This document shows positions 4,849 to 9,749 of a stretch of 64,000 nucleotides of DNA, one piece after another. Made by a program: the position numbers and the translations under genes. Location of the stretch: contig CAMYKK010000014.1 of NCBI GenBank assembly GCA_947258975.1, positions 1 through 64,000 of the forward strand. The letters run 5' to 3'. How positions within the stretch are numbered: the stretch's first letter is position 1; each line of letters begins with the position of its first letter. Source of the DNA: an uncultured Gammaproteobacteria bacterium (GTDB lineage: Bacteria > Pseudomonadota > Gammaproteobacteria > Arenicellales > JAANXG01). Under the pieces are notes generated by a model, which worked only from the letters and a program-made list of their open reading frames with translations, was not told the DNA's origin and did no database searches.

Positions 4849-5718
4849 TCAGCTGAAGATACTCTTGATTCGCGTTAGTTCCTCGCTGGCTTCCCGTATT
4901 AGATTGAGGCTTTCTTCGGCATTCAGGCCGAGCTTTTTGAACGCAGGGACCTCGCTCCAATTTACTTGGGATGATGGATGAGGGGCACCTCTCCGCACGT
5001 GCAGGTTGGCAATGATCACGATGTCTAAGTATCCGGCCTGCGGGCCGCCATCGTACCGCCAGTCCTCGTGTTGGCCCGCAACGTCGACCAGCGCCGAGGG
5101 CAGTTTCCAGGCCTGCAGTACGAGCTTGCCAATCGCCTGATGGAGCTTATCGCAAACCGCCTCCAGCAATGCGCTGTCGGTGGCGATTTCGGGGTATCGC
5201 TCCGCTTGGGCGATCACCGGGAGTATACCGATATCATGCACCAGACCGGCCAGCATGGCCTCTTCGGCATCGAGGGCCGTTGAAGTCGTTACCAGCACGC
5301 GCGCGATCGCGGCAACTTCAACGCTGTGGCGCCATACGCGGCCTAACTGCACTTTGAGGCTTTCCCCTTTGACTTGGTAGAGCCGTTTCACCATCAGGCT
5401 CATCACGATGGTGCGGATACTTGTGCGCCCCAATCGAGTCACTGCCATGGGGATATTTTCGATAACCAGGCTTCCACGATACAATGGGCTGTTCGCGACC
5501 TGTAGCAGTCGAGCGCTCAGCGCGGGATCGGTTGCGATGATTCCAGAGACATCCTCGCTGCTCGAATCCTGGTCATCAACGATCTGACGTACTTTCAGCG
5601 CTACCTGCGGCAGCATGGGCAACTTGAGGGCGCCGGACTTTATGTCGCGGATCACCTCGGATACGAATTGATCTAGTCTCGGCTTATTGGCTAGCGCTAT
5701 GTTCGGATCTGCTGTCAT
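4849..5718 (-). CDS. HDOD domain protein
   Basis: The 289-residue protein is essentially one HDOD domain (about residues 25-225), a divergent HD fold without the metal-binding His-Asp set. Marker segments are Leu-Pro-Met-Leu-Pro-Gln-Val-Ala near 33, Ile-Ala-Thr-Asp-Pro-Ala-Leu-Ser-Ala-Arg-Leu-Leu-Gln-Val-Ala-Asn-Ser near 61, and Leu-Ala-Gly-Leu-Val-His-Asp-Ile-Gly near 157. HDOD proteins act as regulators or scaffolds in signalling, often with cyclic-di-GMP or two-component systems. There is no output domain and no operon partner, so the specific role is unknown. The ATG at 5718 starts just before the domain. Confidence 0.85.
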   Translation of the reverse strand: MTADPNIALANKPRLDQFVSEVIRDIKSGALKLPMLPQVALKVRQIVDDQDSSSEDVSGIIATDPALSARLLQVANSPLYRGSLVIENIPMAVTRLGRTSIRTIVMSLMVKRLYQVKGESLKVQLGRVWRHSVEVAAIARVLVTTSTALDAEEAMLAGLVHDIGILPVIAQAERYPEIATDSALLEAVCDKLHQAIGKLVLQAWKLPSALVDVAGQHEDWRYDGGPQAGYLDIVIIANLHVRRGAPHPSSQVNWSEVPAFKKLGLNAEESLNLIREASEELTRIKSIFS

Positions 5719-6177: not shown

Positions 6178-6846
6178 TCAACTCGTTCCCGTACCGCCGC
6201 TGCTTGTTTTGTCGATGCTGCGGCTGTCGTCGTCATCGCTCTTGGCATCATTGCTGGCCGCATCGTTGCTGGGACCGTCGCTATTGTTATCGTCGCTCCT
6301 ACCGGCAACATTAGTGGTGCCATCGTCGACCTCGATTTCGAGTTGTGTGGAATCATGAACGCGCTGTTCGACGCCGACGAGATTCACTGCGCCACCATTC
6401 AGGATCACCTCGATTTTGGTCTCCATTCCCGGTGCCACGGTGACGGCGGGTCCGGCGGCGCCATCGAAGGTCGTGCTGCAGGTGGTGCTGGCGCCGACGC
6501 CGGGTGTCGCGATCTTGAATTGACCTTGCGCATCGGTGGTGCCCGCGTATGGTGGAACGCCGGGGCAAGTCACGACGACGTTGACACCGGGCACACCGGC
6601 GGCATAGGCCGCCGGGATCGTGATATTGCCGAGGACCGTGAGCAAATATGCCGAGCCCACGCCGGGATGCGTGTTGTAGGCAGCGGCGGCGCCTCCGTTC
6701 ACGGTACCGGTAACGCTGGCAACCGCCGACCCCCCGGCGCCCGCACCCGACGACGTGCCGCCTCCGCCACAGGCGGCCAGGGTCAATGTCAACGCGAGCA
6801 GCGAGGAGCCCAGAATGGCGCATGGTAGCTTGGCTGAATGTCTCAT
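6178..6846 (-). CDS. Lipoprotein with carboxypeptidase-regulatory-like fold, acidic tail
   Basis: 222 residues. A lipoprotein signal ends in Leu-Ala-Ala-Cys (lipidated Cys 26), followed by a Gly-rich linker. Residues about 40-165 hold an extracellular beta-sandwich of the transthyretin/CarboxypepD_reg kind, recognisable by Gly-Thr-Thr-Asp-Ala-Gln-Gly-Gln-Phe-Lys-Ile followed by an Asn-Val-Val-Val-Thr-Cys strand region. Residues about 185-215 are strongly Asp/Ser/Asn-rich. Architecture and leader match the lipoprotein gene at 8226, a likely paralogue. A 14-bp perfect palindrome lies 70-100 bp upstream and contains the same GTGGG-N7-CCCAC core as that gene's promoter. Probably anchored in the outer membrane; function unknown. 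Confidence 0.75.
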   Translation of the reverse strand: MRHSAKLPCAILGSSLLALTLTLAACGGGGTSSGAGAGGSAVASVTGTVNGGAAAAYNTHPGVGSAYLLTVLGNITIPAAYAAGVPGVNVVVTCPGVPPYAGTTDAQGQFKIATPGVGASTTCSTTFDGAAGPAVTVAPGMETKIEVILNGGAVNLVGVEQRVHDSTQLEIEVDDGTTNVAGRSDDNNSDGPSNDAASNDAKSDDDDSRSIDKTSSGGTGTS

Positions 6847-7243
6847 GGTTCGGTCCTCTGTAGTGATTTAAACCCAAGAAAGGCGGCTTGTCCTATGCTG
6901 TTGGGCTTCGCCGCTGAGAATAAGTGGGAAATATTCCCACTTATTCTAGCTTCGACTCAAGCGCTTCGCAACGCAGGCGCACGGATCGCTGATAAACGTG
7001 GTTTCCCGACAGATTACCGGCACGGGCTCGATGCGGGGGATGATCACTCAGAGCTGGAACCGGGCCGGCAGTGTGTCGGACTTAGGATAAATCTAACGCG
7101 GTGGTCGGAAAGTCGGTCCGCTGTAACGATCTATCTTCTTTAATAGCTCACTATTCGCCTCAATAAATCGTCACGCCGGCCGTAAATCTCCCGAAGTCTG
7201 GGTGTCCTGCTTGCAGGTGCGGAATCGTTTCGCTCAAACACGA
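6847..7243. other. Upstream region of the lipoprotein gene, no other gene
   Basis: The 397-bp gap has no supported gene. It contains the 31-bp palindrome at 6917-6947 and otherwise separates the lipoprotein gene from the 3' end of the DUF6502 gene on the same strand. Confidence 0.4.
6917..6947. promoter_or_regulatory. Perfect 14-bp palindrome containing GTGGG-N7-CCCAC (operator candidate)
   Basis: AGAATAAGTGGGAA (6917-6930) is followed after ATA by its exact reverse complement (6934-6947). The inner core GTGGG-N7-CCCAC (6924-6940) is repeated with the same spacing at 8171-8187 in front of the second lipoprotein gene. Without a following T-run it is a poor terminator, and it lies upstream of the minus-strand lipoprotein start at 6846, so an operator is the better reading. 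Confidence 0.55.
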
Positions 7244-8119
7244 CTACGTGTCTTTTGCGTTCGGAGCTTGTTCGAGTTCCGGGTCCTCTTGCAGCTCTTG
7301 ACTGTCGAAGAAATAGACGCCGAAGTTCATGCGGTGCTGCGCGTGCGGAGATTGTCGATCTCGGTGCTGTAGCTGTCGTGCCCGCTTATTCAGGGTCTTG
7401 AGCGCCTTCATGCCTTCTTTTTCGGACAACGCCGCCAAGATCTTGACCGAGTCCGGCGACAAGTCGTCGTAGTACACACTGCGTTCAAGAAAGGGCGGTG
7501 TGCCGCCTTGCACGTTGTGTCTGGCCGCCGCCATGTGGTCGTGGAGATTGCGGCCAAAGTAATACGCCTTTTCGTCAAACCCCTTAGATGGCACGAAGGC
7601 CTCTTCCTGCAGGCACACCCGGTCCTGGTCATCGATCGCGACCGCTTCCAGGCGCAACCACTCGTCCAGGACCGCCCGTGGCCGGATGTCTCTGCTCACC
7701 GAGCTCACCAGGTCCTCGAAACCCGGACCGCCGTCGCCGTGCCGCCGGCGCGGGAGCGGCCGGGGATTGCCGGCGCGGTCAAGAAATCGATCGTCGCTGA
7801 TCCACAGTGCGACCAACTGCGCGCCCAGGTAGATGCTGGCAGGGGGGGGCTCGTCAACCGTGGGTTCACGGCGTAGCCGTCGTACGTCCTTGCGGTGGAC
7901 GCCGGTCAGTAACGTAATGCGGCTATCGGTCTGATTCTTGCCGCGCAGGCGGAATTCTTGTTCCGCAACCTCGACAAAGATCGATTTCAGGATCCCTGAC
8001 AACCACGTGTAAGTCAGCTTGTGATCAAGCAACAACCCCACCAGCGGTCGCAACACGCGCTTTACCGCAGAGACGAGGGCCGGTGGCGCCCGTTGGCTTT
8101 TGGATTCGGTATTCGGCAT
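7244..8119 (-). CDS. DUF6502 family protein, possible DNA-binding regulator
   Basis: 291 residues from the ATG at 8119. The N-terminal third carries the family pattern: Val-Leu-Arg-Pro-Leu-Val-Gly-Leu-Leu-Leu, a Lys-Ser-Ile-Phe-Val-Glu-Val-Ala segment, then Asp-Ser-Arg-Ile-Thr-Leu-Leu-Thr-Gly-Val-His-Arg-Lys-Asp-Val-Arg-Arg-Leu-Arg. The last looks like a helix-turn-helix. The remainder is uncharacterised. A TTG at 8149 is possible, but a TATAAT on the minus strand at 8159-8164 would leave it no leader, so 8119 is preferred. The gene is divergent from the lipoprotein gene at 8226, and the GTGGG-N7-CCCAC repeat lies between them. I infer a local regulator; the family has no established function that I know of. 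Confidence 0.7.
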   Translation of the reverse strand: MPNTESKSQRAPPALVSAVKRVLRPLVGLLLDHKLTYTWLSGILKSIFVEVAEQEFRLRGKNQTDSRITLLTGVHRKDVRRLRREPTVDEPPPASIYLGAQLVALWISDDRFLDRAGNPRPLPRRRHGDGGPGFEDLVSSVSRDIRPRAVLDEWLRLEAVAIDDQDRVCLQEEAFVPSKGFDEKAYYFGRNLHDHMAAARHNVQGGTPPFLERSVYYDDLSPDSVKILAALSEKEGMKALKTLNKRARQLQHRDRQSPHAQHRMNFGVYFFDSQELQEDPELEQAPNAKDT

Positions 8120-8158
8120 TCGTGCGCTCGGCCACACCCGGCTATCCAATTAGCGATG

Positions 8159-8164
8159 ATTATA
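8159..8164 (-). promoter_or_regulatory. -10 hexamer for the DUF6502 gene
   Basis: The minus strand reads TATAAT here, a consensus -10 box that places the transcript start near 8152. The region where its -35 would fall (about 8182-8187) is covered by the right arm of the operator candidate. Confidence 0.4.
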
Positions 8165-8165
8165 C

Positions 8166-8192
8166 TTGACGTGGGTATTTTTCCCACATAAT
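8166..8192 (+). promoter_or_regulatory. Promoter of the second lipoprotein gene with operator in the spacer
   Basis: TTGACG (8166-8171) and CATAAT (8187-8192) give a -35/-10 pair with a 15-nt spacer. The inverted repeat GTGGG-N7-CCCAC (8171-8187) fills that spacer, overlapping both hexamers by one base. A protein bound there would block RNA polymerase, and the same site would cover the -35 of the divergent DUF6502 gene. Confidence 0.5.
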
Positions 8193-8225
8193 CTTTGGCT
8201 ACCGACGTACTCCCAATACCACCTA

Positions 8226-8885
8226 ATGCATTTAGTCGCACACTCCAAAATCCGCCTCACCATCGCTGCCGCCGCATCGTTGTTGCTGACCTCATGCGGC
8301 GGCGGGGGGACCACCGCCGGCGCCGGTGGATCCGGGATCGGCGGCACCGGTATTACGGCCACGGTTAACGGTAACGTGGTCCAGGTCGTCGCCCGGGGCT
8401 GGAGCCCGAATCAGGGCGTGCTACCGGCACGCATGCTGGCAGCGGTCGTCGATTTGTTGGCGGCGCAGGTTCATGCACAAAGCGGCGGCGTCGGTGGTAT
8501 CGGCGTGCGCGGCGGTGGTCAGCAAACGGTGACGGACGCGACGGGCCGCTTCAACCTGCCTAATGTAACGCCCAGCAACAATTTCCAGATTGTGCTGACG
8601 TTACCGGATAATCAGCAGATCGGACTGGCGGTCGGTTCAGTGCTGGCGGGGTCTACGGTGCAAGTTTCCAACATCGTCATCAACAAAAGCCAGAGCAGCG
8701 CAACACCGAGCGCCGTTGACGTTAAACGGGACGAAGACAGCGTGAGCACCGGTGAGGATGACGCCAGTGTGAGTGAACAGAACGCCGGGGAACAGCCGGA
8801 CGGTATCAGCAACGATGAGGCAACTGGCGGTGCGGAAGAGAGCCCCGATGACGATCCGGACGGCGACGACAACCCCAGCACCTGA
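8226..8885 (+). CDS. Lipoprotein with Gly-rich leader and acidic tail
   Basis: 219 residues from the ATG at 8226. A TTG at 8166 lies inside the promoter and would put the signal peptide 20 residues in. The leader ends Leu-Thr-Ser-Cys (lipidated Cys 24), followed by four glycines. A beta-sandwich-like segment at about 95-165 has Val-Thr-Asp-Ala-Thr-Gly-Arg-Phe-Asn-Leu, the same motif as in the lipoprotein at 6178-6846. Residues about 170-219 are rich in Asp/Glu/Ser. The two proteins share leader type, order of parts and upstream operator core, so they are probably co-regulated paralogues. Cell-surface or periplasmic role unknown. Confidence 0.75.
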   Translation: MHLVAHSKIRLTIAAAASLLLTSCGGGGTTAGAGGSGIGGTGITATVNGNVVQVVARGWSPNQGVLPARMLAAVVDLLAAQVHAQSGGVGGIGVRGGGQQTVTDATGRFNLPNVTPSNNFQIVLTLPDNQQIGLAVGSVLAGSTVQVSNIVINKSQSSATPSAVDVKRDEDSVSTGEDDASVSEQNAGEQPDGISNDEATGGAEESPDDDPDGDDNPST

Positions 8886-8930: not shown

Positions 8931-9749
8931 TTAGGCAGTGGCGTCGGGGCGAGCTTTTTCGAGCAGGGTGGATGCGTCGTCGGTGGTGCTCCACTGCGCG
9001 AGGCCGATCTTGATCCCCAGATCCACGCTCTGCCCGTTTTGTGCGGTGATTCGCGTGGTGCCGAGAATCGGTTCGAGCTTGTCGATCAGGATCTTGACAC
9101 CCTCGGTGTTGGTCTCCGGCAGCACAACAAGGAATTCGTAATCGGAAAGACGTCCGGCGAAATCGATGTTTCTGACGTTGTCGGCTAATTTGAGGCCTAA
9201 GTCCCGCAGGATCTGCTCACGGTCCGGGCGATCGATATCGTTCCTACGCAGTCCAGCGATGTCGATACGCACAATGGCCAGCGCGTTCCCGTACCGCCGG
9301 GATCGGGAGACTTGTTCGAAAAGCTCGCGATACATACTCGCTGGGGTCAGTAATCCGGTGTGGGTATCCATCCTCGCCACCTCAAGGAGCAGGTCGGCAT
9401 AACCGCCGATTTCGCTGACTAGATCGCTCACGTCCGTGAACAAGACAACTTTGTGATCGTTGCCGCACGCGGCGGTCGACACCCGCAAGCGCTTGTCTGC
9501 GTCATGGATGGGTTGATAGATCCCCTGTCCGAGTTCTTCCGTTGTCTTGATGGGGAGGTCCCCGAACGCGATGTTCTGTGTCTCCTGTTGCACGATGCCG
9601 AGCTGCGCGTAAAAGCCAGGATTCGCCCACTGAACGCGTTCATCCGACCCCATGATGCAGACGCCGACAGGCAGCTGCGAAAGTATATGCTTGACGTCAA
9701 CGGTGAGACCGGGCCATTCCTTCTTTGTTGTATTGTCGTTAGAACTCAC
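8931..9749 (-). CDS. PAS-GGDEF protein with degenerate active site
   Basis: 272 residues from a GTG at 9749, preceded by GAGGG. Residues about 18-110 resemble a PAS domain (Leu-Pro-Val-Gly-Val-Cys-Ile-Met-Gly near 26). Residues about 130-265 form a GGDEF domain, with the start Asp-Thr-His-Thr-Gly-Leu-Leu-Thr-Pro-Ala. The active-site loop reads Gly-Arg-Leu-Ser-Asp-Tyr-Glu-Phe instead of Gly-Gly-Asp/Glu-Glu-Phe, so the two glycines that hold GTP are missing and diguanylate cyclase activity is unlikely. It may sense a ligand through PAS and signal by interaction. It is the last gene of the oxidoreductase operon, 38 nt after the beta subunit gene. Confidence 0.75.
   Translation of the reverse strand: MSSNDNTTKKEWPGLTVDVKHILSQLPVGVCIMGSDERVQWANPGFYAQLGIVQQETQNIAFGDLPIKTTEELGQGIYQPIHDADKRLRVSTAACGNDHKVVLFTDVSDLVSEIGGYADLLLEVARMDTHTGLLTPASMYRELFEQVSRSRRYGNALAIVRIDIAGLRRNDIDRPDREQILRDLGLKLADNVRNIDFAGRLSDYEFLVVLPETNTEGVKILIDKLEPILGTTRITAQNGQSVDLGIKIGLAQWSTTDDASTLLEKARPDATA

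Follow-up and report, generated by a model that had tools for sequence, protein, structure and literature searches.

The stretch of DNA analysed here, 64,000 nucleotides (nt) of contig CAMYKK010000014.1 from an uncultured gammaproteobacterium (GenBank assembly GCA_947258975.1; hereafter the window), contains a gene of the protein family DUF6502, single-copy in this genome, flanked by the genes of two putative lipoproteins, A and B, and accompanied by two palindromes that are proposed below to be operators (OA and OB) bound by the DUF6502 protein (Table 1). The two lipoproteins have related profiles (hhalign probability 99%, a value to which leader and low-complexity parts contribute), and each carries a lipobox followed by GGGG, an acidic tail and the motif D-A-x-G-x-F, in agreement with an earlier reading of the letters alone (the original prediction) that had described two paralogues with a common leader, this motif and an acidic tail.

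Table 1. Genes, predicted domains, putative operators and predicted promoter elements at the DUF6502 locus, in window coordinates
Feature	Position	Strand	Description
Lipoprotein A gene	6178–6846	-	predicted target; 222 amino acids (aa) with LAAC lipobox, GGGG and acidic Ser/Asp tail
31-nt palindrome	6917–6947	.	14-bp perfect arms, 3-nt centre; holds operator OA
Operator OA (putative)	6924–6940	.	GTGGGAAATATTCCCAC; upstream of lipoprotein A
DUF6502 gene	7244–8119	-	291 aa; predicted autoregulatory DNA-binding protein
Winged-helix domain (predicted)	7580–7852	-	residues 90–180; folded alone, predicted local distance difference test (pLDDT) 85.5
Helix-turn-helix (HTH; predicted)	7868–7927	-	residues 65–84, DSRITLLTG-VHRKDVRRLR; residue 75 marks clade
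-10 box TATAAT, DUF6502 promoter (predicted)	8159–8164	-	begins 23 nt from operator start
-35 box TTGACG, lipoprotein B promoter (predicted)	8166–8171	+	consensus match only
Operator OB (putative)	8171–8187	.	GTGGGTATTTTTCCCAC; between DUF6502 and lipoprotein B, common to their divergent promoters
-10 region, lipoprotein B promoter (predicted)	8187–8194	+	CATAAT/ATAATC/TAATCT
Lipoprotein B gene	8226–8885	+	predicted target; 219 aa with LTSC lipobox, GGGG followed by SGIGGTGIT, and acidic tail

Both palindromes have the form GTGGG-N7-CCCAC at the positions where the original prediction had reported identical copies, and the first is embedded in a longer palindrome with 14-bp arms, which it had described as a perfect 14-bp palindrome. 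They are the only 17-mers of this form in the window, where shuffling gives an expectation of 0.08 and one shuffle in 100 reaches two. OA begins 78 nt upstream of the ATG of lipoprotein A. As a genome-wide marker the literal pattern was rejected, since its 13 sites against 11 in the reversed control represent no enrichment, whereas the core with an A/T-rich centre, TGGGWWWNWWWCCCA, is found at 2 sites in the 5.49 Mb genome, both at this locus (reversed control, 1), so that the rarity is a property of the A/T-rich form. Two matches to the literal pattern, G000:C33:3997 and 4349, read GTGGGTTCGAATCCCAC, which we take to resemble a tRNA T-arm, and they were therefore regarded as non-operators.

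When analysing the intergenic region between DUF6502 and lipoprotein B it was found that the first base of OB is the last base of TTGACG and that its end meets the A/T-rich -10 region, in which either CATAAT (8187–8192), at a spacing of 15 nt, or TAATCT (8189–8194), at the usual 17 nt, may serve as the -10 box of lipoprotein B. OB also overlies the -35 position of DUF6502 on the minus strand and, given the position of the TATAAT box there, one operator spans the -35/-10 spacers of two divergent promoters. The original prediction had described this arrangement, with the second copy filling the TTGACG–CATAAT spacer and covering the -35 region of the divergent gene, and the sequence bears it out. 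At the DUF6502 -10 box the stretch CCCACGTCAAGTATAAT is conserved in the window and in five other loci (L031–L033, L059 and L060). A generic promoter scan of positions 6800–8300 did not have the lipoprotein B and DUF6502 promoters among its listed predictions.

DUF6502 loci were collected from relatives (10 of 60 genomes), from a sample of the phylum (15 of 299) and from named genomes (28 loci), and the gene was present in none of 14 control genomes. The 54 loci with larger flanks, minus the near-duplicates L038, L044, L061, L062 and L070, gave a set of 49; start codons were picked by a simple rule, and distances to the ATG may be off in some loci. Within 350 nt upstream of DUF6502 the strict palindrome is present in 30 of the 49 loci, against a mean of 0.48 and a maximum of 2 in shuffles. 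Its density is 45 sites in 17,150 nt upstream of DUF6502 against 10 in 387,516 nt of background, taken from the same loci more than 1 kb upstream or more than 0.4 kb downstream. With a matrix trained on the 30 strict loci, 16 of the remaining 19 also yield a site (p ≤ 0.017 each), so that both methods combined account for 46 of the 49 loci and for 21 of the 24 protein clusters formed at 60% identity. The enrichment that the original prediction expected near DUF6502 genes elsewhere is thus strong, and it is spacing-specific. Loci of the Aromatoleum group have an additional perfect site 0.7–0.8 kb upstream, and in L053 a palindrome of the same size with the GGG replaced, GTGTAATTTTTTTACAC, stands at the expected operator place upstream of DUF6502.

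Among the relatives GTGGGWWWNWWWCCCAC is present in nine of ten DUF6502-positive genomes and in two of 50 negative ones (Fisher p = 4e-8). The tenth positive genome, G001, has an AAGGG..CCCTT variant before its DUF6502 gene, and the two negative genomes with the sequence are G009, which is 77% complete, and G020, where the site is inside a gene. The sites in G020 and G017:C601 lie within reading frames and are probably due to chance, and those in L111 and L117 are without clear target. G001 and G003 each contain a single copy of a second sequence, AAGGGAWWWWWTCCCTT, in either case before a second-type DUF6502 gene, and it is found in none of 14 other genomes searched, including G002 despite its second-type gene.

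A hold-out set of 136 loci was assembled from two classes: that of the window, with 99 DUF6502-positive genomes among 369, and a second, that of G202 and presumably Alphaproteobacteria, with 15 among 385. Ten fragments or sub-threshold matches of the window's class were left out (two each in G439, G399 and G526, together with G415:C27, G406:C28, G664 and G362:C144). At a p floor of 0.01 the matrix found a site in 12 of 13 second-class loci and in 28 of 123 loci of the window's class, and as this last yield was low a spacing of N6 was looked for; many of the remaining hold-out loci carry the same half-sites one base pair further apart. Among loci of the window's class whose protein has His at residue 75 a site was found at the same floor in 23 of 34. 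Nine plasmid loci (L153–L161) were taken from 75 matching records, and those of Methylocystis iwaonis, Azospirillum lipoferum 4B and Microvirga lotononidis have an upstream site. Two records labelled Acinetobacter phage (H46 and H47) contain a DUF6502-like gene near one end, with 30% identity.

The spacing was counted in 185 distinct loci (L038, L044, L061 and L062 dropped as near-duplicates, L070 kept, L205 left out as the same gene as L204, L273 and L278 treated as one gene, and L014 and L153–L161 outside the count), which are also the loci on which the classes were defined. Proteins with His75 are accompanied by TGGGW-N5-WCCCA in 65 of 94 loci within one mismatch (41 exact) and by the N6 form in none, while for proteins with Thr, Ser or Asn at this position the N6 form is found in 49 of 85 (37 exact) and N5 in none; no other spacer is favoured, those from N2 to N10 reaching at most five loci per class. 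Six of the 185 loci have another residue at position 75 and belong to neither class, one of them with an N6 site. The division persists when proteins are thinned to less than 70% identity (His75, N5 in 44 and N6 in 0 of 67; Thr/Ser/Asn75, N5 in 0 and N6 in 40 of 74), and on a tree of 114 clear-site loci the type of protein matches that of the operator throughout (114 of 114), each changing once.

The same correspondence is seen between paralogues. In G305 two proteins of the HRK kind (residues 75–77) have N5 sites and a TRK paralogue has TTGGGAAAATAATCCCAA, of the N6 form, directly before its start, while an NRR paralogue has neither. G487 contains one HRK gene with N5 and one of the TRK kind with N6, each beside its own site. 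Six further genomes harbour both types (G365, G406, G501, G537, G614 and G642), and within one mismatch one type shows a site, always of its own kind; G455, also with both types, shows none for either. Own-kind sites beside paralogues in one genome are left unexplained by a genome-wide regulator other than DUF6502. A cognate operator beside its own gene, changing with the protein, is one mark of a one-component regulator, and DUF6502 has it, the change of spacing being a single one in evolution.

The DUF6502 protein of the window matches PF20112 (E 4e-35, 121.3 bits against a gathering cut-off of 27, profile positions 3–265 of 268), as do all 49 aligned proteins at E ≤ 1. Pfam assigns this family no function; the present analysis adds the operator, a proposed role in regulation and the division into two clades by spacing. 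A literature search found no paper naming DUF6502, and a search with the operator letters gave nothing relevant, judged by title. The AlphaFold2 model of the full protein (pLDDT 83) has an HTH region at residues 36–88, with helices at 65–72 and 76–84 and a turn between them, followed by a winged helix at 90–180 and, towards the C-terminus, a helical part; S66 and R76 do not vary among the 49 aligned proteins. A second look at the PDB with residues 36–88 gave HBO1 first (Z 6.9) and then mostly DNA-binding HTHs (Z 5.5–6.8), including sigma factors, DeoR, IscR, TrpR and PcaR. Residues 90–180, folded alone, match the winged helices of IclR, MarR, IdeR and RuvB, those of the IclR family with Z 6.8 and a root mean square deviation (rmsd) of 2.5 over 68–69 residues. 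HetR, as a whole-length match, was unusable (Z 6.8 but rmsd 10.9 over 217 residues), and no convincing sequence relative was found in the PDB (best E 0.7). The winged helix thus resembles the N-terminal one of IclR-family regulators (PcaR, BlcR, Thermotoga maritima IclR), while unlike these the modelled DUF6502 protein has an extra HTH before it and the helical part at the C-terminus, and the 24 Pfam families with a match at E ≤ 1 to the 49 proteins include no IclR model.

Downstream of DUF6502 there is usually a gene for a protein that is secreted or lipoprotein-like and has both GIGGTG repeats and a DUF5666 domain. Of the 45 downstream genes recovered in the first set 34 carry G-x-GGTG, and seven of seven scanned partners of other DUF6502 genes match DUF5666 (PF18914). 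In the hold-out set 87 of 126 downstream frames resemble this partner, and G-x-[GR]GTG occurs in 36 of 46 (His75) and 31 of 74 (Thr/Ser/Asn75), the reversed motif in 1 and 2. The DUF6502 and DUF5666 genes overlap by 4 nt in three annotated plasmids. A conserved neighbourhood, as looked for on the strength of the original prediction, therefore exists, but with a downstream DUF5666/GIGGTG protein as the usual partner and not two GGGG lipoproteins; in the window's group lipoproteins A and B occupy the partner's place. Lipoprotein B retains GSGIGGTGIT, with GIGGTG invariant in eight of eight aligned relatives and common to it and the DUF5666 proteins, and it gave no match to DUF5666 at E ≤ 1. Against CarboxypepD_reg (PF13620) lipoprotein B has a weak stretch (14.2 bits, cut-off 32.3) and lipoprotein A no match, while three of eight aligned relatives of A match at E ≤ 0.01, and a relative of A in L063 passes the cut-off (39.6 against 32.3). 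DUF5666 is listed in the hub-gene table of one paper (PMC10714799).

Among the relatives the operator accompanies the lipoprotein A gene even where this gene lies elsewhere or is unlinked: the nine strongest matches to lipoprotein A in DUF6502-positive relatives all have it (9/9), including one unlinked copy. In DUF6502-negative genomes the A-like genes of G006, G010 and G009:C77 are without operator and one in G014 has a weak site of 14.6 bits, while G009:C12, a contig-end fragment from the 77%-complete genome, carries an A-like gene with a perfect operator.

Several neighbouring features were also recorded. Genes of the HDOD-domain and GGDEF type (4849–5718 and 8931–9749) lie on either side of the lipoprotein cluster in the window. 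A third gene, for an outer-membrane beta-barrel-like protein, often adjoins DUF6502 and DUF5666 (L034:6481–7260, L065:7819–8583, L071:8371–9180 and L050:5686–6447); two of four scanned match Phenol_MetA_deg, and in Methylocystis one such gene is annotated as outer membrane beta-barrel. L045 and L054 have no recognisable GIGGTG partner downstream, which in L045 may be an artefact of the simple gene finder. Perfect operators were further found about 0.1 kb from a Crp/Fnr-type regulator gene in L112, L113 and L114 (G002, G004 and G005; confirmed with Pfam for L112), and a response-regulator gene stands about 1 kb away. The perfect operator at position 1581 of L116 (G012:C227), which is not linked to DUF6502, lies just before a small cytochrome-c-like gene (below the Pfam cut-off), followed by a gene for a flavin adenine dinucleotide oxidoreductase that resembles flavocytochrome c; this site may point to a wider regulon.

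Taken together, these data suggest that DUF6502 itself binds the palindromic operator, a reading to which we give a probability of about 0.85, and that it is an autoregulatory DNA-binding protein, probably a repressor, repression being held less firmly than binding. Two copies, presumably as a dimer, would bind GTGGGA-N5-TCCCAC (core TGGGW-N5-WCCCA). Lying across both divergent promoters, that of DUF6502 and that of lipoprotein B, between -35 and -10, OB would let the bound protein keep RNA polymerase off both, and OA would serve lipoprotein A in the same manner, so that the amount of DUF6502 would be self-limiting and both surface lipoproteins would stay low until a signal releases the protein. 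In other bacteria the same switch would mostly stand beside an operon encoding a DUF5666 protein with GIGGTG repeats. The self-contained circuit of the original prediction fits the placement of the sites, as the only two TGGGWWWNWWWCCCA sites flank DUF6502; the control itself, that is direct binding, dimerisation, repression rather than activation and a release signal, we infer from sequence.

A number of observations weigh against this reading. The loci are not all independent, and in the phylum sample the link is much weaker than among the relatives, the exact GTGGG form being present in three of 15 DUF6502-positive genomes (G000, G202 and G330) and in seven of 284 others (p = 0.01). In G202 this match is on another contig and the site of DUF6502, GTGGGATTGTGTCCCAC in the DUF6502 sense, falls outside the pattern, and the exact pattern is a narrow probe since other sites vary in outer bases or spacing. 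Within one mismatch 29 of 94 His75 loci and 36 of 85 Thr/Ser/Asn75 loci are without site. The matrix found none upstream of DUF6502 in L080, none was found in the 6.7 kb stretch of Acinetobacter haemolyticus, where NRR replaces HRK, and five of five Rhizobium loci, including those of R. etli CFN 42 and R. johnstonii 3841, have none before DUF6502. The Rhizobium loci instead all have a perfect ATGGGA-N5-TCCCAT 1.9–2.1 kb downstream of the DUF6502 start (L155:4946, L156:5059, L158:4881, L160:4927 and L161:4934), which in the three with an annotated DUF5666 gene lies just past that gene, in four of five stands before a short annotated frame (of 82 aa at L155:5172–5420 in R. etli) and in R. etli directly follows TTGACA. 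An operator before every DUF6502 gene was therefore rejected. The weaker A-like genes L135, L149 and L152, in DUF6502-positive genomes, also lack the operator.

Further points against it concern the spacing and the fold. On the tree the spacing changes just once, a clade difference rather than repeated co-variation, so that residue 75 is a clade marker and not a proven contact, and its role as cause of the spacing is unsupported. All fold matches of DUF6502 in the PDB are weak (Z 5–7, below 8, the tool's trust level); most of the entries matched are nucleic-acid-binding domains, the best by Z (6.9) is the acetyltransferase HBO1, and Foldseek gave no match under E 0.4 for the DUF6502 models against the PDB. 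The HTH-like stretch named in the original prediction does appear in the models as a predicted HTH, together with a winged helix, but with scores of this kind the DNA-binding fold supports the case without deciding it.

How the operator would act is suggested by its position. In 24 of the 46 site-bearing loci the -10 box of the best promoter-like pair begins 23–25 nt from the operator start, and a site within the -35/-10 spacer is typical of occlusion, so that the placement of the operators within predicted promoters would favour repression. That DUF6502 binds and activates, by a MerR-like twist or as a recruiter, is considered unlikely: the operators do lie near promoters, and the DUF6502 operator overlies a poor -35 (GTGGGA), a feature of some activated promoters, but TTGACG of lipoprotein B has the usual 17-nt spacer to TAATCT and thus needs no twist, and the operator sits inside the spacer. 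In addition, Nitrosomonas-type loci (L035, L039 and L077) retain the right half-site TTCCCAC while the left is replaced by TTGTAA, also a fair -35, 17 nt from TAAAAT or TAGAAT, and the R. etli site stands directly after its TTGACA.

Association alone cannot name the binder, and some sites in the relatives lie beside unrelated genes, as would be expected if another, unlinked transcription factor bound the palindromes and DUF6502 were merely one target gene. This is improbable in view of a site that tracks DUF6502 in at least two classes, shifts its spacing with the clade even between paralogues of the same genome and is nearly absent from relatives without DUF6502 (2/50), and no other regulator gene recurs, by eye, among the neighbourhoods listed. 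Palindromic DNA could also act as an RNA hairpin, in a terminator or leader structure, and a simple scan flags OB as terminator-like (four such in the stretch, 1.5 expected); many sites, however, lie across promoters with a -10 box downstream, and the A/T-rich centre, the fixed N5 or N6 spacer and the clade shift fit a dimer on DNA, which makes hairpins very improbable and a terminator at OB unlikely. Chance as the source of the likeness between two palindromes in A/T-rich DNA might be argued from the frequency of the literal GTGGG-N7-CCCAC genome-wide, but is refuted by the shuffle tests, the recurrence across genomes, the distribution among relatives and the spacing split, and its probability is practically negligible.

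Divergent autorepressors of the TetR and LacI type have an operator between two promoters, and DUF6502 would by analogy resemble them in being divergent from its target with one palindrome overlapping both promoters; it differs from them in its domain arrangement and in having surface lipoproteins as predicted targets. The best reading of the sequence data is that DUF6502 constitutes a new family of autoregulatory transcription factors for surface proteins of the GIGGTG/DUF5666 type. We think it likely, with less confidence than for binding itself, that this family extends across Pseudomonadota, has two DNA-binding units, is dedicated to the GIGGTG/DUF5666 surface system and comprises clades reading N5 and N6 palindromes, one base pair apart, a resetting tied to the H75-R76-K77 helix. 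A family without assigned function, which 99 of the 369 genomes sampled in the window's class possess, would thereby gain a proposed role and binding site, the operator would offer a handle on the regulon and hence the role of the DUF5666/GIGGTG surface proteins, and the one-base-pair difference in spacing between the clades may serve as a natural experiment in the operator geometry of a dimeric regulator.

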